From a virus, in IMG/VR virus record IMGVR_UViG_3300044819_000132, positions 1-22,375 of that record: a stretch of DNA of 22,375 nucleotides; one strand, 5' to 3'. The stretch's first letter is position 1; every line of letters begins with the position of its first letter. Below the pieces are notes generated by a model. It was not told where the DNA came from. It saw only the letters and a list, made by a program, of their open reading frames with translations, and ran no database searches. Below, piece by piece: positions 2,702 through 22,337 of the stretch. The translations under genes were made by a program, and so were the position numbers.

Positions 2702-3190
2702 TCAGTCCTCTTCGACCATCACGCCGCGATCGAGCAGCCGCGCGAGCACGCCCTCGTGGCCATCCTTGCCCATCCAGATCGTCGTGCAGCCCTTCGCCAT
2801 CGTTTCTTGACCCGGAGAGCGGCCGACGACAGGGACGCTCATCCAGATCACGAGTTCGCACGGACGGCCGGTCGGATTGGCGTCGAGCCACTTCCGCAGG
2901 CCGCGCACGGCGGTGACGCCCTCGACGATCCACGGGCCCGGCGTCTCCGCCATCCACCGCGCACATTCCGCCGACGCCGCGCTCCAATCGTGCGAGCCGA
3001 TGAGGTTGTCGGTCGCGTAGACCCGAGCCCCGGTGAGCGCTCCAATGACCTCGCCGAGCGTGGTCTCGGCGAGCGTCGACTTGCCGGTGCGTGGGCCGCC
3101 CGCGAGGACGACGCGCTGCGCGCCGCGCAGCATCCTCGCGGCAAGCCGCTCCGCTGCGCGGCCGACGGTCTCGGCGATCGTGTCGGTCAT
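2702..3190 (-). CDS. Small P-loop kinase/NTPase within the tail operon
   Basis: 162 residues. A Walker A motif (GPRTGKST, residues 32-39) follows a hydrophobic strand (RVVLAG). It continues with an acidic residue in 'YATDNL' (D61), 'WIVEG' (88-91) and a late 'SPGQETMAKG' (125-134). This resembles the DxxL...DW...EG...R layout of zeta-toxin/adenylylsulfate-kinase-like small P-loop kinases, in which D61 would be the catalytic or substrate-binding acid. The substrate is unknown. The ATG start overlaps the stop of the upstream micro-ORF (ATGA) and has no Shine-Dalgarno site, so it is translationally coupled. A longer in-frame start at 3262 (GTG) is possible but would run across both micro-ORF boundaries. 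It sits between the tail chaperones and the tape measure, an unusual place for an enzyme. Confidence 0.7.
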   Translation of the reverse strand: MTDTIAETVGRAAERLAARMLRGAQRVVLAGGPRTGKSTLAETTLGEVIGALTGARVYATDNLIGSHDWSAASAECARWMAETPGPWIVEGVTAVRGLRKWLDANPTGRPCELVIWMSVPVVGRSPGQETMAKGCTTIWMGKDGHEGVLARLLDRGVMVEED

Positions 3191-3255
3191 GACGAGCACA
3201 CCGCAAGCGGCGACAGCGCGATCGCGACGCCCAGCAACCAAAACGCCAATTTCAC
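3187..3255 (-). CDS. 22-residue hydrophobic micro-protein
   Basis: A GTG-started ORF encoding MKLAFWLLGVAIALSPLAVC plus two serines. The whole peptide is a positively charged N-terminus followed by a membrane segment, like a signal peptide or a minimal membrane peptide. The C-terminal 'LAVC' is close to a lipobox but has valine at -1. A GAGGTG Shine-Dalgarno sequence lies 4-9 bases upstream. Its GTG overlaps the preceding stop (GTGA), and its TGA overlaps the ATG of the kinase (ATGA). The ORF may act mainly as a translational-coupling leader for the kinase, or encode a small membrane effector. No homologue is recognised. Confidence 0.45.
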   Translation of the reverse strand: MKLAFWLLGVAIALSPLAVCSS

Positions 3256-3407
3256 AAGTCACCTCGGACGTAGCGAAGAGCGAGAATCAGAAGGACGTTC
3301 ACGGCCGCGAGCGACCAGGCGCACCAGAGCCAGCGAGTCCGCCGCCGGCTCTGCAGCCGCGCGAAGCGCAGCTCGGGGAGGGCGATCCACGAAGGCGTGG
3401 CGGTCAC
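3252..3407 (-). CDS. 51-residue single-pass membrane protein
   Basis: A GTG-started ORF whose first codon overlaps the stop of the upstream gene (GTGA at 3407-3404). The N-terminal half is basic (RFARLQSRRRTR). It is followed by one clear membrane segment (WLWCAWSLAAVNVLLILALR, residues 26-45) and a short YVRGDL tail. The positive-inside rule predicts a cytoplasmic N-terminus. Size and topology fit small phage membrane proteins in general, but no holin or spanin family is recognised. It ends in a GTGA overlap with the 22-residue micro-ORF, so three successive junctions between 3407 and 3187 are stop/start overlaps. This is strong evidence that these short ORFs are translated. Confidence 0.55.
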   Translation of the reverse strand: MTATPSWIALPELRFARLQSRRRTRWLWCAWSLAAVNVLLILALRYVRGDL

Positions 3408-4051
3408 GCGCGTAGCGTGAGGTCGTAGTCGGCCTCTCCGTCCTCGAAGATCTCGTGGTCACTCTCGCCCGCCTCCGGCTGAAGCCCGGGGGCCTTCACG
3501 CGCAGCGGCTCGAGCGCGCAGCCGAGCAGACGGCGGATGGCGAGCTGCTCCGCGCGCGGAAGCGCCGCGATCGTTCCGGCTTGGAGATGCGCGACGAGGA
3601 GAGCGAGGTCCTCGTCCGTCGCGGTGGGCGACAGCGGGTTGTGCTGCGCGCCGGCGAGCTGGAGCGCCTCGAAGACGAGCTTGATCCCCGCGGGGGTGAA
3701 GTAGCGAAAGACGTGGTCCTCCAGCGCCGGGAGGTCGTCGTGCATCTTGAGGATGTCGTTCGGGTCGCAGACCGACCGCGCGATCGCCATCCCCATGATG
3801 CGGGAGAGATAGATGTCGTTCTCGTCCTCCGGCGAGAGCCGCGTGACGCCGGGCTCCGCGAGGTTCAGGAACTTCACGGTGGACGTCGCGCCGTCGCGCG
3901 TCGCGATCTGCGCGTCGAGCTCGCTCAAAAGACGAAGGCCCACTGCAATCGCTGCAGTGGGCCTTCGCTCCCAACCCTCGGCGAAGGCCGAGGGGGGAAT
4001 GACCATCGTGGTGATCGGGCGGCTGGGACGGGCGGAGTCGAAGGTGGGCAT
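3404..4051 (-). CDS. Tail-assembly-chaperone-like protein (second copy)
   Basis: 215 residues, acidic C-terminus, no membrane or catalytic motif. Its helical core ('MGMAIARSVCDPNDI', 'ALQLAGAQHNPLSP', 'DEDLALLVAHLQAG') follows the same pattern as the upstream gene at 4079..4804 ('AAKMIELSICDP', 'CDLCSPLRREMSDIEMLV'). I therefore read the two as paralogues. Small helical proteins just ahead of the tape measure are typically tail assembly chaperones (lambda G/GT, Mu gp41), which coat the tape measure during assembly and are not in the finished virion. The ATG lies 10 bases after the frameshifted product's stop, with GAGG about 9 bases upstream. The family is inferred from position and pattern, not from a firm match. 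Confidence 0.5.
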   Translation of the reverse strand: MPTFDSARPSRPITTMVIPPSAFAEGWERRPTAAIAVGLRLLSELDAQIATRDGATSTVKFLNLAEPGVTRLSPEDENDIYLSRIMGMAIARSVCDPNDILKMHDDLPALEDHVFRYFTPAGIKLVFEALQLAGAQHNPLSPTATDEDLALLVAHLQAGTIAALPRAEQLAIRRLLGCALEPLRVKAPGLQPEAGESDHEIFEDGEADYDLTLRA

Positions 4052-4061
4052 GGGTGTCGCC

Positions 4062-4310
4062 TCAGTCCGTGCCCGTGTTCACGGTGCTTTCGCCGAGCCA
4101 CTTCGGCGTCGCCGGCTTTTGGTCTTCGAGGAGCTGGCCGCGGGCCCACGCGAGCTCGCGCGCGGTGATGGTGACGACTCGGTCGGGGTGCTCGTCTTCG
4201 TCTCGGTCGACGAACCAGCGGAAGACTTGGGCTCGAGTAAGCTCAACAGCTGGCGCGCCATAAAACGCATGTAGAGCCACCGCAAACTGGGCCCGCACCC
4301 GTCGAAAAAA
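4062..4310 (-). CDS. Tail assembly chaperone, -1 frameshift extension (GT-like)
   Basis: After a -1 slip on T TTT TTC, translation continues for 80 residues (FF/RRVRAQFAVALHAFYGAP...) and ends at 4062, giving a fusion of about 247 residues with the upstream domain. The extension has normal protein composition (for example 'AVELTRAQVFRWFVDRDEDE', 'ITARELAWARGQLLEDQ'), unlike the low-complexity zero frame opposite it. The lambda G/GT arrangement is the known precedent, with the T part binding the tape measure. An independent gene starting at GTG 4298 is the alternative, but no Shine-Dalgarno site precedes it. Third-position GC in the first ~60 bases after the slip favours the zero frame, so both frames may be used there. 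Confidence 0.6.
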   Translation of the reverse strand, partial: FFRRVRAQFAVALHAFYGAPAVELTRAQVFRWFVDRDEDEHPDRVVTITARELAWARGQLLEDQKPATPKWLGESTVNTGTD

Positions 4311-4804
4311 CGGAGACCGTCATCCCCTTCTTTCGCGAGCTCGCGAATGCCGACGAGCATCTCGATGTCGCTCATCTCGCGGCGAAGCGGCGAGCAGAGG
4401 TCGCACCATTCCTCGGCAACCTTGAAGAGGTAGTGAATGGTCTCGCGCTGCAGCTCCCCCAAGATCTCCGCGACGCCGCTGCCGTACGGCAGCCCGTCGG
4501 GCTTCAGGCTCGCGCCGATGAACGTGTGGGAGCGCTTGCCCGGCTCGCCCGACGCCGGGTCGCAGATGCTGAGCTCGATCATCTTCGCGGCGTACGCGAG
4601 GTCGAAGAGCGGCTCGCCGAGCTTCGCGTTCTCGGGCTTGACGCCGTGTTCCTGCGCGTACTTCAACGCGTAGGCGAGGCACGCGGCCTCCTCGTCGCCG
4701 GCGAGCGGCACCGCCACGCACGCGAGACCGGTCTCCGAACCGGGGATTGGAAGGGTGAGCGCGCGTTCGGCGCGCCGGCCCTTCTGCATCAGGTCGAATC
4801 TCAC
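4079..4804 (-). CDS. Tail assembly chaperone, zero-frame product (G-like)
   Basis: Reading from a GTG that overlaps the tube-gene stop (GTGA) gives 241 residues; an ATG five codons in is an alternative. The first ~165 residues are an acidic helical domain (for example 'DLAYAAKMIELSICDP' and 'MSDIEMLVGIRELAKE') in the place where Mu-like and lambdoid phages encode the tail assembly chaperone. At 4304..4310 the mRNA carries T TTT TTC. Beyond it the zero frame continues through 'LRWLYMRFMARQLLSLLEP' and then becomes a Ser/Thr/Pro/Arg-rich tail of low complexity, which looks like a shadow of the -1 frame. The 3' ~230 bases are thus open in two frames. The likely role is delivery of the tape measure and tube subunits. 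Confidence 0.7.
   Translation of the reverse strand: MRFDLMQKGRRAERALTLPIPGSETGLACVAVPLAGDEEAACLAYALKYAQEHGVKPENAKLGEPLFDLAYAAKMIELSICDPASGEPGKRSHTFIGASLKPDGLPYGSGVAEILGELQRETIHYLFKVAEEWCDLCSPLRREMSDIEMLVGIRELAKEGDDGLRFFDGCGPSLRWLYMRFMARQLLSLLEPKSSAGSSTETKTSTPTESSPSPRASSRGPAASSSKTKSRRRRSGSAKAP
4304..4310 (-). promoter_or_regulatory. Programmed -1 ribosomal frameshift site (T TTT TTC)
   Basis: The minus strand reads CGT TTT TTC GAC in the zero frame, an exact X XXY YYZ heptamer. Both tRNAs can re-pair in the -1 frame (TTT TTT). A Shine-Dalgarno-like AAGGGG (4324..4329) lies 13 bases upstream, about the distance at which internal SD sequences are known to stimulate -1 shifts in bacteria (dnaX). 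No strong downstream pseudoknot was identified by eye. Confidence 0.65.
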
Positions 4805-5178
4805 GAGATCTTCGGAGCGCCCCCGGAGAGGGTCCACTTCGAGTTTTGGGCGCCTGACTTGTGATCGCTCGTTGCGCCGCCGCTGATGACGCGCATCGTG
4901 ATCGTGTGCGTCTGCCCGTCGACCGGGAAGAGTGAGACGGTGACGTCCGACTTGTTGATCATCGCATTGTAGAGGGCCAGAGAGTCGCCGCCGAGGAGCG
5001 GGTTCAGGCCGTCCAAAGTGAGCTTCGTGGTCGTGGCGCCGTCGGAGAAGCCGACGAGTCCGGGGTCCCCGAATTGCGGCTCGTCGCCCGAATTGAACTC
5101 GTAGTCGTTCTTCTCGAAGGTGCCGCCCTTCTTGCCGTTGATGTAAACGCTGGCCGAACGAACGCGGATCATCGCCAT
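4801..5178 (-). CDS. Tail tube protein (Mu gpM-like)
   Basis: 125 residues, starting MAMIRVRSASVYINGKKGGT. It is the short beta-rich gene directly after the sheath, where contractile phages place the tube subunit that forms the inner channel. The body alternates strands and turns ('TTTKLTLDGLNPLL', 'DVTVSLFPVDGQTHTITMRV', 'SKWTLSGGAPKIS'), as expected for the two-sheet tube fold. An AAGGA lies 9 bases before the ATG. A longer in-frame reading back to 5334 is low-complexity and rejected. The stop overlaps the start of the chaperone gene (GTGA), so the two are coupled. A 222-base gap with a hairpin separates it from the sheath gene. Confidence 0.75.
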   Translation of the reverse strand: MAMIRVRSASVYINGKKGGTFEKNDYEFNSGDEPQFGDPGLVGFSDGATTTKLTLDGLNPLLGGDSLALYNAMINKSDVTVSLFPVDGQTHTITMRVISGGATSDHKSGAQNSKWTLSGGAPKIS

Positions 5179-5336
5179 GGGAGTGGGTCCTTGGAGTGCG
5201 CGCGCTCGTGGCGCGCGGGTGAGGTCGGAGGTGGCGAGTCGGCGAGCGGGGCTAGCGGCCGCAGGCGGCGCACGCGCGCCGCAGGTGCGGCAGGCAGACG
5301 TGCGGGAACGGCTCGGGCGGCAGGTGCGCGACAAGC

Positions 5337-5375
5337 GAAAGGGGCGCGGCAGCCTTCGCTGCGCGCGCCCCTTTC
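5337..5375 (-). terminator. Hairpin between sheath and tube genes
   Basis: The arms 5337..5353 (GAAAGGGGCGCGGCAGC) and 5358..5375 pair almost fully, with a small bulge and a CTTC/GAAG loop. It lies 25 bases after the sheath stop. There is no long T-tract on the minus strand, so it is better read as a weak terminator or an RNA-stability element in mid-operon. The rest of 5179..5400 is GC-rich, with no convincing ORF. Confidence 0.45.
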
Positions 5376-5400
5376 TTTGCGCTCTTCTTCGCGCTCCCCA

Positions 5401-7122
5401 TTACGGGGTCTGGAGAACCGACTGGCCGATCTGGTGGTCGATCTGCATCGGCTGCACCGTCACGGCGCTCATGATGCGCCCGGCGATCGGGTCGAACGCG
5501 GAGACGACCGGGTTGTTCGCGACGTTGTAGATGATCGGCGGAACGCTCAGCCCCTGGACGACGCCGTTCGCGAAGTCGGTGAGGATGGCGTTCGCCGAGC
5601 TGCTCCAGAGCTTCGGGTACCCGACGCCGGCCGGGTACGGGACCGCGTTCACCGGGAGATCCGGCGCGACGCGGGGGTTCGACGGCTTGAAGACGTTGAG
5701 CCAGTAGAGGAGCAGCGAGACGAGGACGAAGTCAGGGACGATCGCCTCGCTCGTGTCGAGACACGAGTAGTCGGGCAGCGTTCCGTTCAGCGAGTGGCTC
5801 GTGATCGAGCGGACGATGACCGCCTGCCCGCTCGCGTTCGTCGTTACCGGCGTGACGCCCGTGTTGAGCGCCGCGACGAGCGTGCTGTGAATCGGCCAGT
5901 CGGACCGCTGCGACTGCGGGGCGACGCCAGGGAGGACGACGTCGTCGTAGCCGATGCACGGGTCCACGGCTTCCGCCGCGGTGCGCATCGCCGCGAAGAT
6001 GCCGGCGATCTCCGAGTAGTGGGTCTCGGAGTTCAGGTACCAGAGGAGCTGCATCCGCTGGCTGTTGAGCGTGGTCTGCGCGAGCGTCGTCGCGGCGGCG
6101 AGCGTGCCGGTCACGGCGGCGACCGCGTGCTGCAGAAGCAGCGTGAGCGGGCCCGCCTGGTTCGTGATCTGCGTCAGCCAGCGGCCGAGGTTCGTCGCGT
6201 CGTTCTGGCAGAGCGCGATGCGATCGAACTGTTGGTTCTGGATGTACTGCAGGATGTTGGTGACGTTCTCCGCGCCGGCGCCGCCGCCGGCCGAGATGCC
6301 GCCGCCGGTGACGACCTGGCCGAAGCAGGTCCAAACCGCTGCGCCGTCCGTGACCGTTGAGCCGACGGTCGTCGGCCACGTGGGCTCCACCGAGCCGACA
6401 GCGCCACCGGTCGTGCACTTGAAGTAGAAACCGTTCGCGTGCGCTGCGCTCGGTTGCGCGTAGGTGTTGACCGCGACGACCGTGACGCTCGGCGTGAACG
6501 TGCTCCAGAGGACGCCGCCCAGGTTGCAGCTGACGCCCGGGCACTGCAGCAGGCTCTGGAACGCGATGTAGCTGTTGCCGTCGAGGCCCGGCGTGATGCA
6601 GGTCGCGGTGACGACGGCGCCCACGGCGACCGCAGTGAACGGGCATCGCGGGGTCGCGTTGATCTGCGCCGCGAGGTTCGTCGCGATCGTGGAGGCGGCA
6701 TCGGACGCGCCGATACCGACGGGGATCGTGAGCCCGGCGATCCGGACGTAGAGCGTCTCGGGAATCGTCTGCGCGGCGGTGACCAGGAACGTGAACGTCG
6801 CTTGCGCGGCGCCGCTCGCGACGGCGACGGGCGCGCCGTAGACCTGCACACCCTGAATGCCGACCGCGCCCTGCACGCAACGCGTGAGCTGGCCGCCGAC
6901 GCCGTAGAGCGAGTCGGCGGTCGGCACGTCCGGAATGAAGTCGACTTGCGCGTCCTGCACAGAGGTGCCGGAGGCGTTCGACGCCTTCATCCCGACGCAG
7001 AGGAGCTTCAGCGGGATCGAGGCCGCGCTGGTGGCGCCGGCGCCGTACTTCACCTGGCCGTAAGCACCGGGAACGAAGTCGGTCGAGGGGAAGCCGACGA
7101 TGACGATGGAGGGGCCGGTCAT
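5401..7122 (-). CDS. Tail sheath protein (Mu gpL-like) with an inserted beta domain
   Basis: 573 residues, longer than the ~500 of Mu gpL. It starts MTGPSIVIVGFPSTDFVPGA. The C-terminal half carries sheath features: 'RIALCQND', the 'GPLTLLLQHAVAAV' helix, 'GQAVIVRSITSHSLNG', then 'DYSCLDTSEAIVPDFV', like the 'RxITT...D..yLD' segment of Mu-type sheaths. The sheath contracts to drive the tube into the host. Residues ~210-268 form an extra module ('GFYFKCTTGG...EPTWPTTVGSTVTDG..VWTCFG') also found at the C-terminus of the protein encoded at 7950..9053; it is probably exposed on the sheath surface. AGGGA lies 8 bases before the ATG, and the start is one base after the preceding stop. Confidence 0.85.
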   Translation of the reverse strand: MTGPSIVIVGFPSTDFVPGAYGQVKYGAGATSAASIPLKLLCVGMKASNASGTSVQDAQVDFIPDVPTADSLYGVGGQLTRCVQGAVGIQGVQVYGAPVAVASGAAQATFTFLVTAAQTIPETLYVRIAGLTIPVGIGASDAASTIATNLAAQINATPRCPFTAVAVGAVVTATCITPGLDGNSYIAFQSLLQCPGVSCNLGGVLWSTFTPSVTVVAVNTYAQPSAAHANGFYFKCTTGGAVGSVEPTWPTTVGSTVTDGAAVWTCFGQVVTGGGISAGGGAGAENVTNILQYIQNQQFDRIALCQNDATNLGRWLTQITNQAGPLTLLLQHAVAAVTGTLAAATTLAQTTLNSQRMQLLWYLNSETHYSEIAGIFAAMRTAAEAVDPCIGYDDVVLPGVAPQSQRSDWPIHSTLVAALNTGVTPVTTNASGQAVIVRSITSHSLNGTLPDYSCLDTSEAIVPDFVLVSLLLYWLNVFKPSNPRVAPDLPVNAVPYPAGVGYPKLWSSSANAILTDFANGVVQGLSVPPIIYNVANNPVVSAFDPIAGRIMSAVTVQPMQIDHQIGQSVLQTP

Positions 7123-12215: not shown

Positions 12216-13478
12216 TCACTGGTACGCGCCGGCGATGAGCCCACCGACGAGGCCGGAGGTCATGACCTCCGCGTCGTGGTGGAGCGCGACGAGCTGCGAA
12301 CCGCCCATCGAGCCGCGGAACTGGTTGAAGAACTCGCGGATCACGAACCCGCCGCTCGCCTGGCCGGCGGCGGCCGCCGCGTTCCAGCGGAACGTGTACG
12401 CCGTCGCGATGTCGTCCTGCGACGTCGGCGGCATCTGGTCCGGCTGGCGGATCAGGATGCACGACGTGCCCCACATATAGGTGAGCGCTCCGCCGTTCGG
12501 GGCGAAGTACTTCATGCGGCCGACGTAGATCGGCGGCAGCTCGAGGAGGCCGGCCATGGCCTCGGGGCCCGGGATCGGCGCGGCGCCGACCTTGTACGTG
12601 ATGTACTTTTGGACCGACGGGTTCCGCTGGAAGGCGTGCCAGAGGTTCTCCGCCATGATGATGCCGGAGATGTCGCCGAGCGACGCCTCGATCCGGCTGT
12701 GCAGGTCGTGGATCGGGTCCGACGACGCGCCGCCGTCCCACTGGAAGCCCGACGCCAACGTGACGACGTTGTTCGAGTTCCAGTTGGAGCTGTTCGACAG
12801 CAGGTTCGCGACGCGGAGCTCGCGCCGCATCAGGAGCGCGATGAGGACGCGCTTGAGCGTCGCCTGGCGGATCTTGAGCGGGGCGTCCGCGTTCGCCTCG
12901 ACCTGCGTCGGCACGAAGCCGCCGAGCGCGTACTCGATGGTCGAGAACGGGTTGTTCGAGAGGCGCGGGTTGACCTCGGGAACCTGCGCGCCGCCGGCGC
13001 CGGCGATCGGCTCGACGAGCTGGAACGCGTCGTTCTGCGAGAAGATCCAGTACTTGTCCGACTGCTTGTTCACGACGACGGGCGGCGCGCCCATGTCGGC
13101 GATCGGCTTGAAGTTCCGGTAGCCGCCCGCGAAGTTCGGCAGGCCCGACTGGATGTGGACGGCACTCGGATCGAGGTCGGCGAACGCCGCGCGCTGCTCG
13201 ACGCCGGAGTTGAAGCCGCGATCGCTGCCGGTGCCGACGCGGCTCAGCGACGCGAGGTTGTCGAAGCCGCTCCGGTAGGCGTTGCCCGTGAGCTGCATCG
13301 CCTCGCTGGCGATGAAGTCCGCGCACATCTTGTGGACCTTCTCGTCCTTCGTGTCGTTCTTGACCGACATCTGGGCGAGCTGGTTGCCGCCGGAGTCGAA
13401 GACGTAGCCGTTGTTGAAGTCGAGATGCGTCGCCGTCGGGAAGGCGGCGCTCGAGAACGGAATGACGTGCGATCGCAT
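12216..13478 (-). CDS. Major capsid protein
   Basis: 420 residues. Position after the protease/scaffold and decoration genes and overall composition fit an HK97-fold major head protein: a long N-terminal region, a helix-rich core ('APLKIRQATLKRVLIALLMR', 'IIMAENLWHAFQRNPSVQKY') and a terminal 'VIREFFNQFRGSMGGSQLVA' followed by 'LHHDAEVMTS'. The ending 'R..GG..vv..hh.e...ts' is common in phage capsid proteins of the wider Mu gpT/GTA-like sort. A GGAG lies 8 bases before the ATG in the leader GGAGCTCCTCCC. No N-terminal delta-like domain is evident, consistent with the separate scaffold encoded just upstream. Third-position GC is high throughout and there are no breaks. Confidence 0.8.
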   Translation of the reverse strand: MRSHVIPFSSAAFPTATHLDFNNGYVFDSGGNQLAQMSVKNDTKDEKVHKMCADFIASEAMQLTGNAYRSGFDNLASLSRVGTGSDRGFNSGVEQRAAFADLDPSAVHIQSGLPNFAGGYRNFKPIADMGAPPVVVNKQSDKYWIFSQNDAFQLVEPIAGAGGAQVPEVNPRLSNNPFSTIEYALGGFVPTQVEANADAPLKIRQATLKRVLIALLMRRELRVANLLSNSSNWNSNNVVTLASGFQWDGGASSDPIHDLHSRIEASLGDISGIIMAENLWHAFQRNPSVQKYITYKVGAAPIPGPEAMAGLLELPPIYVGRMKYFAPNGGALTYMWGTSCILIRQPDQMPPTSQDDIATAYTFRWNAAAAAGQASGGFVIREFFNQFRGSMGGSQLVALHHDAEVMTSGLVGGLIAGAYQ

Positions 13479-14256: not shown

Positions 14257-14913
14257 TCAGGCGCCGGCGACGGTCTCGATCTCGAGGCCCATGTACTTCT
14301 TCGCCGCCCTCGCGAGGTCCTGCTCGCTCATGCAGAGGACGGCGGCTTGCGCGTCGGCGAGTTCGATCCGGTCCTTGCGGGCGATGACGCGCGCGAGGGC
14401 GGCCTCGTCGATGACCGGTCGCTCCGGCGTGCCGACGCGCGCAACGGTCGGCTCGCGGAGGTTGCCGCCGGCCACGATGTTGCGCTGAAGCGGCTGATTG
14501 GCCCGGGCGACCTTCGGATACATGACCGAGAACTGGGCGGGGAGCGTCTTGCGGAACTCCGTGAGCTGCGCGCGCAGCTCCTCCTTCGCCCCCTTCGTAT
14601 CGGAGTACGCGGCGATCGCGTCCGTCACGTCGGCCGTGACCTTCTCCGCCTCGATGACGTCGAGCGCCGCCTGCTGGGTCGCGAGCTTCGCGCGGAGCGT
14701 CGTGAGCTCGGCGTCCATCGCCGAGAACTGCGCCGTCATGGAGACGACCTTCGCCTCGGCCGCCGCGTGCGCCGTCTTCGTGGTGGCGAGCGTCTGCTCG
14801 CTCAGCGTGAGCTTGTTCGTCAGCTCCGAGACGTCGGTCGTCGCCTTGACGAGCTTCGTCTGGGTCTCGCTGAGCAGCGTCGCGACCTTGTTCTCTTCCG
14901 ATGCAACCGTCAT
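14257..14913 (-). CDS. Candidate internal in-frame start: separate scaffold protein (Mu gpZ-like)
   Basis: Within the large fusion gene, an ATG at 14913 (residue 590, MTVASEENKVATLL...) is preceded by GGGAG at 8-base spacing. It would yield a 218-residue protein consisting of the coiled-coil region ('VSELTNKLTLSEQTLATTKT', 'AELTTLRAKLATQQAALDVI') and a C-terminal helical tail. Lambda C/Nu3 and Mu I/Z are known precedents where the scaffold is made from an in-frame start inside the protease gene. Such a product would be needed in excess over the protease. This rests on start-site inspection only. Confidence 0.55.
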   Translation of the reverse strand: MTVASEENKVATLLSETQTKLVKATTDVSELTNKLTLSEQTLATTKTAHAAAEAKVVSMTAQFSAMDAELTTLRAKLATQQAALDVIEAEKVTADVTDAIAAYSDTKGAKEELRAQLTEFRKTLPAQFSVMYPKVARANQPLQRNIVAGGNLREPTVARVGTPERPVIDEAALARVIARKDRIELADAQAAVLCMSEQDLARAAKKYMGLEIETVAGA

Positions 14914-16680
14914 GGCAAAATCTCCCGCATCGCCGCCGAGGTCACCCTCGTCGGACGTCGTTGTGGTTGAACCGTCGGGAGACCCGCCGGCGTGGTACTC
15001 GACCTCGTGTTCCTTGATCGCCGCGTCGATGAGGTCTTGGACGACGTCGAAGACGTCCTCGTCCCACTTCGCGCCCGGCGCTGCGCCCACGAGATCGCGC
15101 AGTCCAAAGCAGTACTTCGCGAGGCTCGTGCCTTGGTGGACCCCGTTGGGGTCGCCGCCGCACGCCGCGAACCTCTCGCGCAAGCTGTCGAGGTGCTCCG
15201 ACGCTTTCTCCGCCGGCTCGAGCTCGTGCATCCCGAACACCTGCCGAATCCGCGGCATGTATTCGTTTGGGCCGTGCGCGTACCCGCTCGCGCTCATCAG
15301 CGAGACCTGCGCGGGCGACGTCGCCTCTTTCTGGTTCTCGCTCGCGACGAGCTTCGCCAGGTCGAGGAACGGCTGATTCGTGAGCCCTGCGGACGAGAGC
15401 CGCGCGCCGATGGGTGCCGCCGTGGCCTTGTCCTTCGAGCCGAACCGAATCGCCGGCGAGATGCCGGCGTACTTCCCCTCGCGGATGTACTGCCGCGCGA
15501 GGTCGCCCCACTGCACGAGGCCCCAGAGGTGGCCCCGCTCGTCGAGCTTCAGGTCGTGGATCCAGCCCTGCGCCGGCGTCCCCTCGCTCGGGATCGTGCC
15601 CGAGGTCGGGTCCTGCTCGCTGCAGTGGTTGAAGTCGATCGGGATGTTGCGGTTCGGGTTCTTCGCCTTGTCGGCGTGGAAGTTCCGAACGATCTCCGCG
15701 AAGACCTCGCGCGTGAGGTTGATGTCCCCCGCTGGATGCCCGGGCCACCGACCTGGCGCGCCGAGCTCGGTCCACACCTTCGGCGCCTGCGCACCTTCCG
15801 CGAGCGTGCAGCTCGCGATGGCCTCGTCGCTGAGGGAGACGATGTCTCCGACGGCGCGCGGGCCGTTCTGGCTCGAGAGATGTCGCACGTGGATTGACCC
15901 GCCCTTTCCGAGCTCGCCGTGAATGCGGACGCGAGCGCCGTCGCTCTTCTTCGGCGCGTCCTTCGAGCCGACGCCGAGCTGCCGCGCGCGGCGCGCGATG
16001 TTCCGCTTCGCCTCGCGGTACTTCGCGCCGCTGATCGCGCCCTTGTTCTTCTCGGCCTCGAGCCGGCTCGCAGCGTCACGCACGTGCGCCGCGTCCTCGA
16101 TCGGGTACTTCTTCTCCTTCGGGAGCGCGAAGTACTTCTCGGGGATGCGCTTGCGCGTTTTGGCCGTGAGGACGGACATCTGCTTTGGCTCCGTCGGCTC
16201 GCCGCGGCGGAAACGCCCGCCGCCCTGCACGTGCACGTCCGAGGGGCCGAGGTCCGCGAACGGATAGGCGACGTCGAAGGCGCCGAGCTCAATGAGCCGC
16301 GCGACCGTCGCGCCGTAGAGAGCGGCCTGGCCGAGCAGTTCGCTCGGCGTCATCCAGCCGATGCGCGTGTCGGGCTCGAGCGCCTGCGCGTTGCCGGACC
16401 AGCCGGCCGCGCGTAAGATCGAGACCTTGCGGCCGTCGGTCGGCGACGTGATCTCGCAGACGAGCGAGAGGTTCGCGGCGACGATGCCGCACTCCTCGAG
16501 CGTCTCGCGGCGGGCGGCGGCCTCGGCGTCTTCGCCGGGCTCGACGATCCCGCCCGGAATCGCCATCTCGTGCGGGGGCTCGGGTCGCGAGACCACGAGC
16601 ACCTCGCCCGCTGCGTTCACGACGATGGCGAGAGCGGCGTCGCCCTCACGCCACCGTCGCTCCTCCTCGGGGGAGGCCAT
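14257..16680 (-). CDS. Nudix hydrolase - Mu gpI-like prohead protease - scaffold fusion
   Basis: 807 residues in one open frame. Residues ~10-140 are a Nudix domain with a complete Nudix box (G44 x5 E50 x7 R58-E-T-L-E-E-C-G-I66), the metal-binding signature of nucleoside-diphosphate-X hydrolases. Residues ~178-237 ('KYPIEDAAHVRDAASRLE', 'AKRNIARRARQLGV') look like a small phage-associated helical domain (DUF6582-like, tentative). Residues ~318-440 resemble the Mu gpI protease: 'NIPIDFNH' (H352), 'AQGWIHDLKL', 'IREGKYAGISPAIRF' (S408). Residues ~590-720 are a coiled coil typical of scaffolds. The protease would cleave scaffold and capsid during head maturation. The ATG is one base after the preceding stop. 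Nested starts are possible at M168 and M590. The Nudix fusion is unusual; its substrate is unknown. Confidence 0.8.
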   Translation of the reverse strand: MASPEEERRWREGDAALAIVVNAAGEVLVVSRPEPPHEMAIPGGIVEPGEDAEAAARRETLEECGIVAANLSLVCEITSPTDGRKVSILRAAGWSGNAQALEPDTRIGWMTPSELLGQAALYGATVARLIELGAFDVAYPFADLGPSDVHVQGGGRFRRGEPTEPKQMSVLTAKTRKRIPEKYFALPKEKKYPIEDAAHVRDAASRLEAEKNKGAISGAKYREAKRNIARRARQLGVGSKDAPKKSDGARVRIHGELGKGGSIHVRHLSSQNGPRAVGDIVSLSDEAIASCTLAEGAQAPKVWTELGAPGRWPGHPAGDINLTREVFAEIVRNFHADKAKNPNRNIPIDFNHCSEQDPTSGTIPSEGTPAQGWIHDLKLDERGHLWGLVQWGDLARQYIREGKYAGISPAIRFGSKDKATAAPIGARLSSAGLTNQPFLDLAKLVASENQKEATSPAQVSLMSASGYAHGPNEYMPRIRQVFGMHELEPAEKASEHLDSLRERFAACGGDPNGVHQGTSLAKYCFGLRDLVGAAPGAKWDEDVFDVVQDLIDAAIKEHEVEYHAGGSPDGSTTTTSDEGDLGGDAGDFAMTVASEENKVATLLSETQTKLVKATTDVSELTNKLTLSEQTLATTKTAHAAAEAKVVSMTAQFSAMDAELTTLRAKLATQQAALDVIEAEKVTADVTDAIAAYSDTKGAKEELRAQLTEFRKTLPAQFSVMYPKVARANQPLQRNIVAGGNLREPTVARVGTPERPVIDEAALARVIARKDRIELADAQAAVLCMSEQDLARAAKKYMGLEIETVAGA

Positions 16681-16681
16681 C

Positions 16682-17113
16682 TCAGAACGTTCTGACGAAG
16701 CCGCCGATCACGAACGCGGGCATCACGGCGGAGCCGGTGTTCGTGACCGCCATCGTGATCGTGTCGCCCGGCGTGAGGAACGAGCCGGCGCCGGCCTGGA
16801 GCGTCATCTGCGCGGCAACGAACGCGGTGAGCGCCGTCCCGCCGGTGAACGTCGTCAGCGTGCCGATGAGCGTCTGCGAGCCGCCGTTCGTGCGCTTGAA
16901 AACGTTGACCGTGATGAACGCCGAACCGCTGATCGCGAGGCTCGCGCTGGGATGAATCGTGATGCTGCCGATGGGGATCTGGTTCGGCCCCGGGCCGAGC
17001 ACGCCGACCGCTTCCTCGGCCACCGCCGAGGTGCCGCCCGCCTGAATGAAGTCGAAGAACGGCGAGCAGGTTGCGAGCGTGGTGCCGATGTCGTTGACGC
17101 TGTTGAGCTGCAT
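16682..17113 (-). CDS. Small beta-rich virion protein, unknown function
   Basis: 143 residues, starting MQLNSVNDIGTTLATCSPFF. A GAAGGA 6-7 bases before the ATG fixes the start; the in-frame extension to 17476 is a shadow of the portal gene. The protein is a string of beta strands ('NQIPIGSITIHPSASLAISG', 'AFITVNVFKRTNGGSQTLIG', 'MAVTNTGSAVMPAFVIGGFV') with few charges, like a decoration, fibre or jelly-roll protein. It lies between portal and protease genes, where Mu has gp30 (F), but shows no resemblance to gp30. Its stop is one base before the start of the protease fusion. Confidence 0.55.
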   Translation of the reverse strand: MQLNSVNDIGTTLATCSPFFDFIQAGGTSAVAEEAVGVLGPGPNQIPIGSITIHPSASLAISGSAFITVNVFKRTNGGSQTLIGTLTTFTGGTALTAFVAAQMTLQAGAGSFLTPGDTITMAVTNTGSAVMPAFVIGGFVRTF

Positions 17114-17157: not shown

Positions 17158-18867
17158 TTACTGGGCGGCTTGGTCCGTGGCGTCGTTCGCTGCGGCACCC
17201 GCCGCGTCGTCCGTCTCCGTCTCTTTGTCGTCGTCGCCTCCGCCGTCGGGCGGATCGCCGTCTGGGCCCGGCGCGGGCGACGCGGCGACGAGTTTGATCG
17301 GCTCGTCGTCCTTCTCGTTCTTGTCGACGAGCTTCATGCCGCCGCGCTCGGCGATGTCCTTCTTCGACCAGGGGATCGAGACCTGCGCCGCCTTCACGGC
17401 GAGGTCGAGGAGCTCCTTCGCGGATAGGTCCTCGTTCACGTTCAGCGCGAGCCGCGGACAGAGCAGCGTCTCGCACCCAGGCCAGTTGAGCCGGACGATC
17501 CAGTAGATGAGGTCGCGCTCGAGCGAGTCGCAGATCGCCGCCGCGTCGTAGGACGAGAGCTTCAGCGTGCCGCGCTCGGCGACCTCGCTCGCGGACCTGG
17601 CGCCGGTCTTGCCAGGCTGCGTCGTGTAGTCCTGACCGAGGACCCCTTTGGACATCTGCCCATCGAGGAAGAGAAGAAACTTCTCCGCGTCCATCGTGGA
17701 CGCGCCCTTCAGGATCTCGATCTTGCAGGCGTCCGGCAGCGTCGCCGAGTTCAGCGAGCCGAGCCCGAGAGCCTTCGTCGCCGCGTCGAGCCGCTGAATG
17801 TCCAGCGTCGAGGCGGGGACCGGCGTGTCTTTCTCCTCGTCGCGCGAGAAGTAGCCGACGATGAGCGGGCGGACCGAGCGCTCAAAGTCTTGCGCGACGG
17901 CGCGCGCGACCATGCGCTTGATCATCATGTAGGACGCGATGAAGCGCCCTTCGCCGTCGCGCGTCGGGTATTCGCCCGAGAGCGTCGGCGCGTGGATGAT
18001 GAACTTCCCGGGGAAGTCCGCCATGCGCAGGCCGTACAGACCCGTCGTCGGGCCCATGTACTGCATGCCGGGGCCCACGAGCCCCTGATCCCAAACGTGG
18101 AGGTCCCACGTCGTGGGATTCGAGTAATTGAGCCGTCGCGAGTGGATCGAGTGCAGCGCCTTCGGGCGCCACATGTCCGTCAGCGACCACTCGATCTCCG
18201 CGGCCGAGAGCCCGGTGATGATCCCCCAGGCGAGCGCGAAGAGCGACTGCGACCAGCGCGGGATCGCCCGCAGCATCGCGTCGACCTGGTTCGCGATGCT
18301 CTGCGCCTTCTCGTAGAGCGGGTGCCCGTCCGGCAGCTTCGCCGGGAGCACCTGCAGCTTCGCGCAGGCGACCGCGAGGACCCGCTGCCGCGTGACGCCG
18401 CGCGCGTGCGGGTCGTGCTCGAGCAGCTCCGAGAGGACATCGACGAACTGGTACCGCAGCCCGTAGGTGCAGTTCCGGAAGCACGACGCGAGGTAATTGA
18501 GGGTGAGGTTCCCCCCAATGACGATCGGCGTGCGATCGATGATGGGCGCCGGCGTGAGCAGCCGCTGCGCCGCGCTCGACCCGTCCGACCATTGCTCCCG
18601 GTCGGACGTGCCGCCCGGAATGAGCGGGGCGCTCCCGCGGCTCGGCGGTCGGCGATTGACGCTGCCGTCGCCGACGGCGACCGGGAGCTCTTCGCCGAGC
18701 GCGCCGTACGTGCCGCCCCGAATGCTATTCGGATTCGTCTGCGCGACTTGCGCAGCAACCGGCGTTGCCGGAAACTCCTGCGGTTGCTGCGCGGCGAACG
18801 TGCTGCCGAGCGCCCCAAACCCGTTGAAGCCCAAGCCGGGCAGCTCTTCGAGTGCGGAGTTGGGCAT
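17158..18867 (-). CDS. Portal protein (Mu gp29/DUF935-like)
   Basis: 569 residues. Features of the DUF935 portal family are seen in order: 'VLSELLEHDPHARGVTRQRV' (variable residue then helix), 'GIITGLSAAEIEWSLTDMWR', 'FIIHAPTLSGEYPTRDGEGR', 'SYMMIKRMVARAVAQDFE', and at residues 399-412 'LFLDGQMSKGVLGQ' followed by 'TTQPGKTGARSASEVAERGT', the typical 'DgqiSkaiLGqtltt..G.sra.aevh' segment. The N-terminal ~110 residues are Gly/Pro/Ala-rich and the C-terminus ends in an Asp/Ala-rich acidic tail. The portal forms the dodecameric DNA gateway and docks the terminase. The gene follows the large terminase after a 114-base gap with a small hairpin. GAGG lies 10 bases before the ATG. Confidence 0.85.
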   Translation of the reverse strand: MPNSALEELPGLGFNGFGALGSTFAAQQPQEFPATPVAAQVAQTNPNSIRGGTYGALGEELPVAVGDGSVNRRPPSRGSAPLIPGGTSDREQWSDGSSAAQRLLTPAPIIDRTPIVIGGNLTLNYLASCFRNCTYGLRYQFVDVLSELLEHDPHARGVTRQRVLAVACAKLQVLPAKLPDGHPLYEKAQSIANQVDAMLRAIPRWSQSLFALAWGIITGLSAAEIEWSLTDMWRPKALHSIHSRRLNYSNPTTWDLHVWDQGLVGPGMQYMGPTTGLYGLRMADFPGKFIIHAPTLSGEYPTRDGEGRFIASYMMIKRMVARAVAQDFERSVRPLIVGYFSRDEEKDTPVPASTLDIQRLDAATKALGLGSLNSATLPDACKIEILKGASTMDAEKFLLFLDGQMSKGVLGQDYTTQPGKTGARSASEVAERGTLKLSSYDAAAICDSLERDLIYWIVRLNWPGCETLLCPRLALNVNEDLSAKELLDLAVKAAQVSIPWSKKDIAERGGMKLVDKNEKDDEPIKLVAASPAPGPDGDPPDGGGDDDKETETDDAAGAAANDATDQAAQ

Positions 18868-18981: not shown

Positions 18982-20499
18982 TCAGCCTTCGCTGAGTGCC
19001 GACTTGAACGTGTGAATGTCCGGCGTTTCGTCGTCTTCGCGTTCCGGATTGAGCTTCACCATGAGTTGCGTGAAGAGCCACACGGCGGCGTCCAAACGAT
19101 CCGGTGAGCGCGGGGACACGTCCGGGATCCAGGTGCAGAACTGATCTTCGAGCTCGGCGAACGCGCCCACATGGTGGATGCGGTTCTGTTCGTAGAGCGC
19201 GGAGACCGGCTCGGCGCGCGTGGCCTTGCCGCGCGAGGCGTGCACTTTGCGCACGGGGAGCGAACGCCGCACGGTGTGCAGGGTCGAGCGCACCATGTCG
19301 CCCCCTTGGTTCACCTCGGCGACGACGAAGTCGGCCTCGTAGTCGTCGAAGAGCTTGACGACCTTCGCCGCCCATTCCTCCGGCGTGTACCGACCCGAGG
19401 CGTCCTCGAGCACGTAGCCCTGGCCGTCGTAGCCGACGCCGCCGACGACAATGCCCGTCTCGGCCGACTCTGTCCCGCTCGAGATCGCGGGGTCCACCGC
19501 GATCGCCACGGTGCGGAGGGCCGGCGCCTCGTCGACGCGGTTCGTGTCGAGTCCGGCGCGCTTCCAGAGCGCCCCCGCCGTGTCGTCGAGAACCTCGGCG
19601 TCAATTTCCTGACGGCCGAGGCGCGTGCCCTCGTACGTCCGGAGGATCTCGTCGAGGAAGTCGGCGGCGACGTTGCCGCGGTTCTCGTGGGAGCTCCCGC
19701 GGGTGAGATGTACCGTGCGGCGAACGACACGACCCCGCCGATCCCGATGGTCGTAGGTCTGCTCGAGCAGCTTCCGGATGACCGGCGTCGGCCGCGGCGT
19801 CGTCGTGACGACGCATTGCGGGCTCGAGCCGAGGCGAAGGCCGAAGCGGAGCTGGGCGTAAGCGTCCTCGTACCGCCACGCCGCGAGCTCGTCGGCCCAC
19901 GCCTTGTGGTGCTGCGGCCCGCGGAGCTGGTCCGGCGCGTCGGCCGAGTAGGTGGTCGCCTGCGCGCCGTTGGGCCAGGTGAGGAGCCGCCGGCTCGGCG
20001 AGTACTCCGGCTTATTCCACGGCGGGCAGATATTGAGCAGCCCGCTCTGCCCCGTGACCATGACGTCGCGGACGTCTGGCACGGTCCGCCCGACGAGCGC
20101 GATACGGAGGTTCGACTTGACGTCGGGCGGGCCTACCCAGTCGCGGACCGTCTCCGCGCCCGTGCGCGTCTTGCCGAATCCGCGGCCGGCGAGGATGAGC
20201 CAGAAGAGCCAGCGCCAGTCGCTCGGCGGTAGCTGCTTCGGCCGCGCCCAGAAGCGCCAGTCATACTGGAGGGTCTTCCGATGGGTCGTCGTCGGCGCCA
20301 GCCGACGCAGGACCTCCTCCCGCTTCCCCCGCGGGAGACTCGCGACGATCGCGGCCTTCGACTGGTTATCGAGGCCCAGCGCCTGCAGCTGGTTGCCGTT
20401 GGCCCCCAGTTGCTCCAGGTCGCTTGCTTCCGAAAAGCTCTTCGCTGAGCTGATCGAGCCGCTTGTCGATGTCGTCTTGAGCACTGGAGATGTCTTCAA
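18982..20499 (-). CDS. terL: Terminase large subunit
   Basis: 505 residues from a TTG at 20499; no ATG occurs in the first ~145 codons, so the true start is uncertain. The conserved core appears to begin near 'IVASLPRGKREEVLRRLAP' (residue ~51). ATPase motifs: Walker A 'LAGRGFGKTRTGAE' (103-116), Walker B 'HKAWADELAAW' (198-208, D203/E204) and coupling motif 'TTTPR' (232-236). Nuclease motifs: 'AVDPAISSG' (D336), 'VVAEVNQGGDMV' (E395) and 'RSPDRLDAAVW' (D467/D470). It pumps and cuts DNA at the portal. The sequence style is close to gene-transfer-agent/Mu-like large terminases. The first 134 bases overlap the small subunit gene, which suggests a later non-ATG start. Confidence 0.9.
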   Translation of the reverse strand: MKTSPVLKTTSTSGSISSAKSFSEASDLEQLGANGNQLQALGLDNQSKAAIVASLPRGKREEVLRRLAPTTTHRKTLQYDWRFWARPKQLPPSDWRWLFWLILAGRGFGKTRTGAETVRDWVGPPDVKSNLRIALVGRTVPDVRDVMVTGQSGLLNICPPWNKPEYSPSRRLLTWPNGAQATTYSADAPDQLRGPQHHKAWADELAAWRYEDAYAQLRFGLRLGSSPQCVVTTTPRPTPVIRKLLEQTYDHRDRRGRVVRRTVHLTRGSSHENRGNVAADFLDEILRTYEGTRLGRQEIDAEVLDDTAGALWKRAGLDTNRVDEAPALRTVAIAVDPAISSGTESAETGIVVGGVGYDGQGYVLEDASGRYTPEEWAAKVVKLFDDYEADFVVAEVNQGGDMVRSTLHTVRRSLPVRKVHASRGKATRAEPVSALYEQNRIHHVGAFAELEDQFCTWIPDVSPRSPDRLDAAVWLFTQLMVKLNPEREDDETPDIHTFKSALSEG

Positions 20500-21043
20500 A
20501 GGCGACCGGGCCGCCGTTCTTCCCTGTCACTTCCGTCTGCAGCGGCGCGTCCAAACCGAAGAGTTTGCAGCGCCGGTTGGAGAGCGCGATCGCCTTGCCG
20601 ATGGCTTCGATCTTCTCCCGCGTCTCGGCGTCCTCATCGTCGAGGATGACGTTCAGCTTCCGCTCGAGGCGTTCGAGCTTCCGCGCCTCGAACTTCCGAA
20701 TCGTGTCGATCTCCTCGACCGGCGTGGCCGCCATCTCCGCCGCGATGAGGCGGTGCACCGACGACTTGTTCTTGTGCCCGATGCGCTGGGCGATCGCCTC
20801 GAGCGAGAAGCCGCGCGCGCGGAGCTCGACGGCCTGCGCGGCGACGAGCTTCATTGCGGCCGCCTTCTTCGCGGCCGCCGCCCCCTTCTTTGGATGCGGC
20901 TTCTTCGCCCCAGGCGGGCGCGGCTTCCGCTGCCCTACGGCGCGGTGCCCCGTCGGCTGGCGGTGCTTTTTCGGTCGCTCTGCTTTGTCGTTGCTTTGGA
21001 CAGCGGCCGATTTCGGCCCCGCATTGCCGTCGTTACTTGTCAT
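20366..21043 (-). CDS. terS: Terminase small subunit
   Basis: 225 residues from the ATG at 21043, which has GCGGGA about 4 bases upstream. The in-frame extension to 21226 has no such site and crosses a 37-base inverted repeat. The first ~60 residues are very basic and Pro/Lys-rich ('KKPHPKKGAAAAKKAAAMKL'). A helix-turn-helix ('LRARGFSLEAIAQRIGHKNK') and a helical oligomerisation region ('FEARKLERLERKLNVILDDE', then 'LSNRRCKLFGLDAP') follow, the latter very characteristic of phage small terminases ('RR.kLlGLdAP'). It recognises the packaging site and regulates the large subunit. Confidence 0.8.
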   Translation of the reverse strand: MTSNDGNAGPKSAAVQSNDKAERPKKHRQPTGHRAVGQRKPRPPGAKKPHPKKGAAAAKKAAAMKLVAAQAVELRARGFSLEAIAQRIGHKNKSSVHRLIAAEMAATPVEEIDTIRKFEARKLERLERKLNVILDDEDAETREKIEAIGKAIALSNRRCKLFGLDAPLQTEVTGKNGGPVAFEDISSAQDDIDKRLDQLSEELFGSKRPGATGGQRQPAAGAGPR

Positions 21044-21080
21044 TGTTCCCGCTACTTGGCTTGCCCGCGGTGTCGGATGT

Positions 21081-21117
21081 GGCCACAGCAACACGCGGGC
21101 AACGTGTTGCTGTGGCC
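21081..21117. repeat. Perfect 15-bp inverted repeat in the divergent intergenic region
   Basis: The arms GGCCACAGCAACACG (21081..21095) and CGTGTTGCTGTGGCC (21103..21117) are exact complements around a 7-base loop, CGGGCAA. A smaller hairpin (TCACCC/GGGTGA, 21123..21139) is next to it. The element is 37 bases upstream of terS and 107 bases upstream of the divergent gene. It could be an operator, an RNA hairpin in the terS leader, or part of the packaging site. No promoter hexamers could be assigned with confidence in 21044..21224. Confidence 0.6.
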
Positions 21118-21224
21118 CGGCGTCACCCCTGAAGGGTGAGGTACCCCCAGTCCAAAGGGAGCCCCGGCTCGGAGTTTTTGTGCGAGGGTTTTCTTGTCCC
21201 CGCAGAAAGGGTCTGAAGTGGCTC

Positions 21225-22337
21225 ATGCGTGTGAAATTTCATGTCGAGATCGCGCTATCGACTTCTACCCGCGCCCGCCAAGTCGGCGCGATGTTCGACT
21301 GCCCCGCCGAGGAGAAGTCCCGCCTCGAATGGGACATCGACCTGCCCATCCGTCCTGGGGAGGGTGCCCCCTGGAACGTCGGCCTCGTCGTCGGCCCCTC
21401 CGGCAGCGGCAAGTCCTCCCTCCTCCGCCACGTGTGGGGAGAGATGCCCGAGCTAAAGTGGGCCGGCGCGTCCATCGTGGACGACTTCGCCGCCTCCCTG
21501 CCGATGGAGTCGATCACGGGGGCGTGCTCCGCCGTCGGCTTCAACACGATCCCCGCCTGGATGCGCCCCTTCCGGGTCCTCTCCAACGGGGAGCGCTTTC
21601 GCGTCGACCTCGCCCGCCGCCTACTCGAGCTGCCGGACCCGATCGTCGTCGATGAGTTCTCGAGCGTCGTGGACCGCCAGGTGGCGAAGATCGGCTCACA
21701 CGCCGTCCAGAAGTTCGTCCGCAAGAACAAGCGGCAGTTCGTCGCCATCGGCTGCCACTACGACGTGATCGATTGGCTCCAGCCCGACTGGGTGCTCGAC
21801 ATGGCGACGCGGTCCTTTACCCGGAGGTCGCTTCAACGTCGCCCCCCAATCGACTGTGTCGTCGGGCGCCTTCCCTATGCCGCGTGGCGTATGTTCGCGC
21901 CGTTTCACTATATGAGCGCCGAGCTCCACCACGGCGCGCGCTGCTTTGGACTCTGGTGCAACGGCGCGCTCGCGTCGTTCATCGCGGTCCTGCCCTTCCC
22001 CCACCCCAAGGTACGGGACATCCGCCGCATCTCGCGCGCCGTCACTCTGCCCGACTGGCAGGGGCTCGGCCTTCTCCGGACGCTCATCGACACGATGGGG
22101 GCGGCCTACGCCGGCACCGGCATGCGCTTGCGCGGCTACCCGGCCCATCCCGTGCTCGTGCGCGCCCAGCAGAAGTGGGAGACCTGGCGCCAGACGAAGG
22201 AGGCGGGGACCTTCGGCAGTCACGTGAGCCCGACGAGCACGGCGGTATCGAAGATGGGCACGAGCGCGTGCGCCGTCTTTGAGTACTGCGGCGCCCCGAT
22301 GCCGAAGAACGAGGCCGAGCGGCTCATCGCGACATGA
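21225..22337 (+). CDS. ABC-type ATPase fused to a GNAT-like acetyltransferase domain
   Basis: 370 residues, the only plus-strand gene. N-terminal ABC domain: Walker A 'VGPSGSGKSS' (56-65), signature-like 'VLSNGERFRVDLARR' (118-132, LSNGE for LSGGQ), Walker B 'PDPIVVDEFSSVVD' (137-150) and switch histidine 'GCHYD' (H178). C-terminal domain: 'FHYMSAELH' (227-235) and 'ISRAVTLPDWQGLGLLRTLI' (269-288), the latter a GNAT motif A-like acetyl-CoA loop. This architecture is the known family COG2401, with no transmembrane segments, so it is not a transporter. The role is unknown; phage Mom, a DNA-modifying GNAT-fold enzyme, is a possible functional parallel. The ATG overlaps no gene. Ribosome binding is weak (GAAG 9 bases upstream). 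Homologues often start similarly, so the start is plausible. Confidence 0.75.
   Translation: MRVKFHVEIALSTSTRARQVGAMFDCPAEEKSRLEWDIDLPIRPGEGAPWNVGLVVGPSGSGKSSLLRHVWGEMPELKWAGASIVDDFAASLPMESITGACSAVGFNTIPAWMRPFRVLSNGERFRVDLARRLLELPDPIVVDEFSSVVDRQVAKIGSHAVQKFVRKNKRQFVAIGCHYDVIDWLQPDWVLDMATRSFTRRSLQRRPPIDCVVGRLPYAAWRMFAPFHYMSAELHHGARCFGLWCNGALASFIAVLPFPHPKVRDIRRISRAVTLPDWQGLGLLRTLIDTMGAAYAGTGMRLRGYPAHPVLVRAQQKWETWRQTKEAGTFGSHVSPTSTAVSKMGTSACAVFEYCGAPMPKNEAERLIAT

Follow-up and report, generated by a model that had tools for sequence, protein, structure and literature searches.

The head gene cluster of the phage studied here encodes, in one open reading frame, a Nudix hydrolase domain, a DUF6582 domain, a Mu gpI-type prohead protease and a scaffold-like C-terminal region (Table 1). 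The best reading of this arrangement is that a Nudix enzyme is placed inside the assembling head, from where it may be packaged into the virion. The window, by which we mean the whole stretch of DNA that was analyzed, is a phage genome fragment of 22,375 bases from a metagenome; it is the complete virus record, which leaves no additional sequence of this genome to draw on.

Table 1. Features of the fusion gene and its neighbors, in window coordinates.
Feature	Position	Strand	Basis
Nudix-DUF6582-Mu I protease-scaffold fusion ORF, 807 aa	14257..16680	-	ATG start, no internal stop; relatives L002/L003, L006
Nudix domain, residues 14-118	16327..16641	-	Pfam PF00293, E 1.2e-16
Nudix box, residues 44-66, with all catalytic residues; Thr60 deviates from consensus	16483..16551	-	Sequence; alignment of three fusions
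DUF6582 domain, residues 177-238	15967..16152	-	Pfam PF20223, E 9.1e-9
Mu gpI-type prohead protease, residues 322-503 of Pfam match	15172..15717	-	PF10123, E 8.6e-21; phrog_328
Presumed catalytic His352	15625..15627	-	Invariant with three free-standing Mu I proteases
Presumed catalytic Ser408	15457..15459	-	Invariant with three free-standing Mu I proteases
Shine-Dalgarno-like GGGAGA, 7 bases before in-frame ATG	14921..14926	-	Equivalent site GGGAGA in L002, GGAGA in L006
Scaffold-like C-terminal region from Met590	14257..14913	-	Position and internal start
Mu-type portal gene, upstream context	17158..18867	-	Pfam PF06074, E 4.4e-42
Major capsid protein gene, downstream context	12216..13478	-	phrog_1005, E 7.2e-39

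The frame runs from its ATG through 807 codons without a stop, as the earlier note on this DNA had described. That note had named a Nudix domain, a Mu gpI-like protease and a scaffold; these assignments were right, although the DUF6582 domain was overlooked. In the window protein the NUDIX, DUF6582 and Mu-like_Pro matches each exceed the curated Pfam cut-offs, and the PHROGs search agrees, returning the head maturation protease family phrog_328 (E 1.4e-22) together with several Nudix families. The C-terminal part gives weak coiled-coil matches under the curated Pfam cut-offs, and the scaffold is called from its position and an internal start.

The fusion is not confined to the window. Two further viral contigs, L002 and L003, encode a 1077-aa version that is 72% identical to the window protein over the shared part and carries about 266 extra N-terminal residues. 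These two contigs show three differences over the region compared and thus represent one lineage seen twice. A third virus, represented by a contig of 138.5 kb (L006), encodes an 854-aa version that is 39% identical and has all three Pfam domains. The recurrence of the joined form at these two levels of identity, in independent viral contigs, rules out a sequencing or assembly error that joined two genes; the sole observation that could be placed on the side of such an artefact is that more distant Mu I homologues lack the Nudix part, and we give the idea practically no credence. The existence of these Nudix-free proteins is most simply explained if the fusion is the derived state. In the annotated phage collection that we searched, the exact Nudix-DUF6582-Mu I combination was absent, and a tblastn search of annotated phages with the Nudix-DUF6582 part gave no match. 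A scan of bacterial genomes returned two matches (L009 and L010), both to part of the Nudix domain alone, without the protease. One Nudix-less Mu I protease (L051, 4608-6092) has a different N-terminal extension of about 130 residues.

The fusion gene lies between the Mu-type portal and major capsid genes, with the terminase upstream and the tail sheath further on; in a Mu-type head cluster this is the place of the protease. Directly before its start, a small gene without a family match (16682-17066, minus strand) ends in the arrangement TGAG-ATG. The two genes may be translationally coupled, since the Shine-Dalgarno sequence of the fusion itself is weak. Elsewhere in the window, a frame at 20490-22337 on the plus strand, opposite in orientation to the late genes, contains an ABC-type ATPase P-loop (Pfam ABC_tran, E 6.5e-6) and has a C-terminus that reads like an acetyltransferase.

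The middle part of the fusion is identified as a Mu gpI prohead protease by its PF10123 profile match and its conserved histidine and serine. His352 and Ser408 are invariant in six sequences, comprising the three fusions and the free-standing Mu I proteases of Shewanella phage MuM16-2, Alteromonadaceae phage B23 and Campylobacter phage CAM-P21. In phage Mu itself, gene I also yields the scaffold Z, from an internal start. The window protein resembles this gpI/gpZ arrangement in combining a protease that has the conserved His and Ser with a scaffold-like C-terminal region that has a putative internal start; however, Mu-like I proteins are 271-340 aa long and lack the Nudix and DUF6582 domains. 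The Shine-Dalgarno sequence and ATG at the beginning of the scaffold-like region are conserved in all three fusions; this is the pattern that separate synthesis of the scaffold, which is probable, would predict. A second internal start at Met168, which would yield a Nudix-free protease, was considered and rejected: its Shine-Dalgarno sequence is weak and is not conserved in L002.

The Nudix domain of the window protein is probably an active hydrolase. Its box reads G44-x5-E50-x7-RETLEECGI, compared with the consensus GX5EX7REUXEEXGU, and residues G44, E50, R58, E59, E62, E63 and G65 are invariant in the alignment of the three fusions. To call the box perfect, as had been done before, slightly overstates the case, as all catalytic residues are there but Thr60 occupies the position after RE where the consensus has a bulky aliphatic residue (U); the other two fusions have leucine (REL). 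Between the window and L002, Nei-Gojobori estimates of omega, which are crude for such GC-rich sequences, are 0.29 for the Nudix domain (74% identity), 0.30 for the protease (81%) and 0.51 for the scaffold (66%); the comparison with L006 is uninformative. Roughly, then, constraint on the Nudix domain appears similar to that on the protease and tighter than that on the scaffold.

In comparisons with NCBIfam and PDB, the domain is nearest to MutT-type and ADP-ribose enzymes. Among the NCBIfam profiles the MutT type is nearer than the ADP-ribose type, with all scores far below the curated cut-offs, and such similarity does not settle the substrate; we assign none. The RNA-cap hydrolase suggested earlier is a possible role that gains no specific support. 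Nudix enzymes of the ADP-ribose pyrophosphatase type have a conserved proline in a loop about 15-17 residues past the box (PMC5389931). P80 of the window protein, 14 residues past I66 and aligned across the three fusions, recalls this proline, although in L002 a 13-residue insertion precedes it.

Nudix domains have also become attached to other head proteins. A scan of viral sequences with the Nudix part found Nudix-DUF2213 proteins (L029/L032 and L035/L036) that match phrog_6216. This family is listed as of unknown function and matches fusions in L029 (5623-7113), L036 (5461-6885), L037, L038, L040 and L041. Cultured phages encode Nudix-DUF2213 proteins as well: Klebsiella phage Chronis (gp4), Pantoea phage PdC23 (gp4), Shewanella phage QDWS and Yersinia phage vB_YenM_06.16-1 (OM046622), where the fusion is annotated as a glycosyl transferase. 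The DUF2213 score lies under its cut-off in QDWS and L029. In the cultured phages these genes are located between the portal and capsid genes. The phrog_6216 fusions thus share with the window protein an N-terminal Nudix domain, a C-terminal prohead protease and the portal-capsid interval; they differ in that the protease belongs to another Pfam family, DUF6582 is lacking and their Nudix domains and the Mu I ones do not make up a single clade. In Burkholderia phage Bcep1, gp18 resembles phrog_15528 and likewise joins a Nudix domain to a head protein, but here the domain sits at the C-terminus of the portal and the DUF2213 protease is a separate gene. Two further proteins were observed: an 880-aa protein in L027 (4879-7518) that combines two Nudix stretches with a 2H phosphoesterase domain and DUF5661, and an 849-aa protein, found in three contigs (L019, 5566-8112), with a Nudix domain and a weak SprT-like match below the cut-off.

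The general idea of a head-fused, packaged Nudix enzyme is not new. Iyer et al. 2022 describe Nudix domains fused to the portal, to MuF and to a capsid-processing serine peptidase, and propose packaging and injection (PMC9503650). The window protein likewise has a Nudix domain joined to a capsid-processing peptidase within a head gene cluster, and the same inference of packaging applies; the Nudix domains described there are T4 NudE-like, whereas the window profiles are nearer MutT. The peptidase described there may or may not be of the Mu I type. Together with the cultured-phage fusions, this published class contradicts the earlier note, which knew of no standard phage with such an architecture; putting the enzyme inside the assembling head, as that note did, is still the best reading. 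The apparently new elements are the form with Mu I and DUF6582, the evidence for its independent recruitment, the internal start signal conserved in the fusions, and the occurrence of a ParB-like module on two head proteins.

When 29 Nudix domains were placed in one tree, those of the Mu I group separated from the DUF2213/portal group; the tree is based on 122 columns and is limited by long branches. The AU test rejects the hypothesis that all head-fused Nudix domains form one group (p 0.008), which speaks against a single origin, and does not reject a group that holds the DUF2213 and portal Nudix domains together (p 0.16). This constitutes moderate evidence that Nudix domains were recruited to head proteins at least twice.

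The extra N-terminal part of the L002 fusion includes the ParB/sulfiredoxin-like motif IIDGHHRTLAC, for which profile support is weak (phrog_1033, E 0.006). A similar ParB-like segment, 52% identical, is found at the C-terminus of the L006 portal (3046-5364; the L002 segment, at the N-terminus of the Nudix-protease, lies at 5203-5740), and the module thus occurs on two different head proteins. Polyvalent proteins, in which ParB-like and other effector domains are encoded with head genes, were described by Iyer et al. 2017 (PMC5512222). The fusions are similar in the presence of several effector-like domains per polypeptide, in the head-gene setting and in the ParB-like part; they differ in that the window protein is still built around a morphogenesis protease and that the ParB-like part is found only in the relative L002.

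These observations can be combined in one explanation. A Mu-type prohead protease-scaffold gene would have gained an N-terminal Nudix hydrolase and DUF6582. The internal start before residue 590 would provide free scaffold in excess, with which the long form would assemble by way of their common C-terminal region, bringing protease and Nudix domain into the prohead. Self-processing by the protease may then free or retain the Nudix domain, and a few copies could stay in the head, enter the next host together with the DNA, and there hydrolyze a nucleoside-diphosphate compound, such as an ADP-ribose type signal or a damaged nucleotide. As a whole, we consider delivery of the Nudix domain by way of the scaffold tail reasonably probable. 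Sequence conservation underlies the early steps of this route, whereas packaging, cleavage, injection and substrate are inferred. It draws on the domain matches, the presence of the fusion in three viruses, its portal-capsid position, the similar constraint on Nudix domain and protease, the invariant His352 and Ser408, the conserved internal start, and the packaging proposed in PMC9503650. The notion is also supported by the Nudix domains on DUF2213 proteases or the portal elsewhere, which are different proteins with a common place in the head, and by the ParB-like module shared between the L002 fusion and the L006 portal.

Against delivery, a Nudix domain on a protease that is often lost at maturation might just as well be active in the producing cell alone; the scaffold assignment, made from position and weak coiled-coil matches, also counts against it. 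In the producing cell or the prohead, the domain might clean the nucleotide pool or regulate the protease, to be degraded or expelled at maturation and never injected. The closest profile matches are indeed MutT-type house-cleaning enzymes, and the protease may destroy its own N-terminal extension; however, pool cleaning would be served by a free Nudix gene, and in Bcep1 the Nudix domain is joined to the portal, which stays in the virion. We regard a role restricted to the producing cell or prohead as unlikely, if far from negligible. More improbable still is that the Nudix fold has lost catalysis and now serves in structure or ligand binding, perhaps by helping the protease to dimerize or by anchoring it. 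Thr60 and the variable loop after the box, with its insertion in L002, would fit such a domain, but a dead domain would have no need of the metal-binding and catalytic residues that are all invariant in the three fusions.

Delivery of the Nudix domain might be extended to a self-releasing cargo system, in which the protease brings an effector in on the scaffold tail and cuts it free at maturation. Exchangeable Nudix and ParB-like effectors, shared between protease and portal, would then disarm nucleotide-signal defenses at entry; we offer this extension tentatively, as a speculation that is doubtful at present. The cultured phages named here would permit direct tests of packaging and delivery. 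The unannotated family phrog_6216 and some misannotated genes are explained as Nudix-protease fusions, and the findings indicate that the joining of Nudix enzymes to prohead proteases of phages took place on more than one occasion and involved two families of protease.
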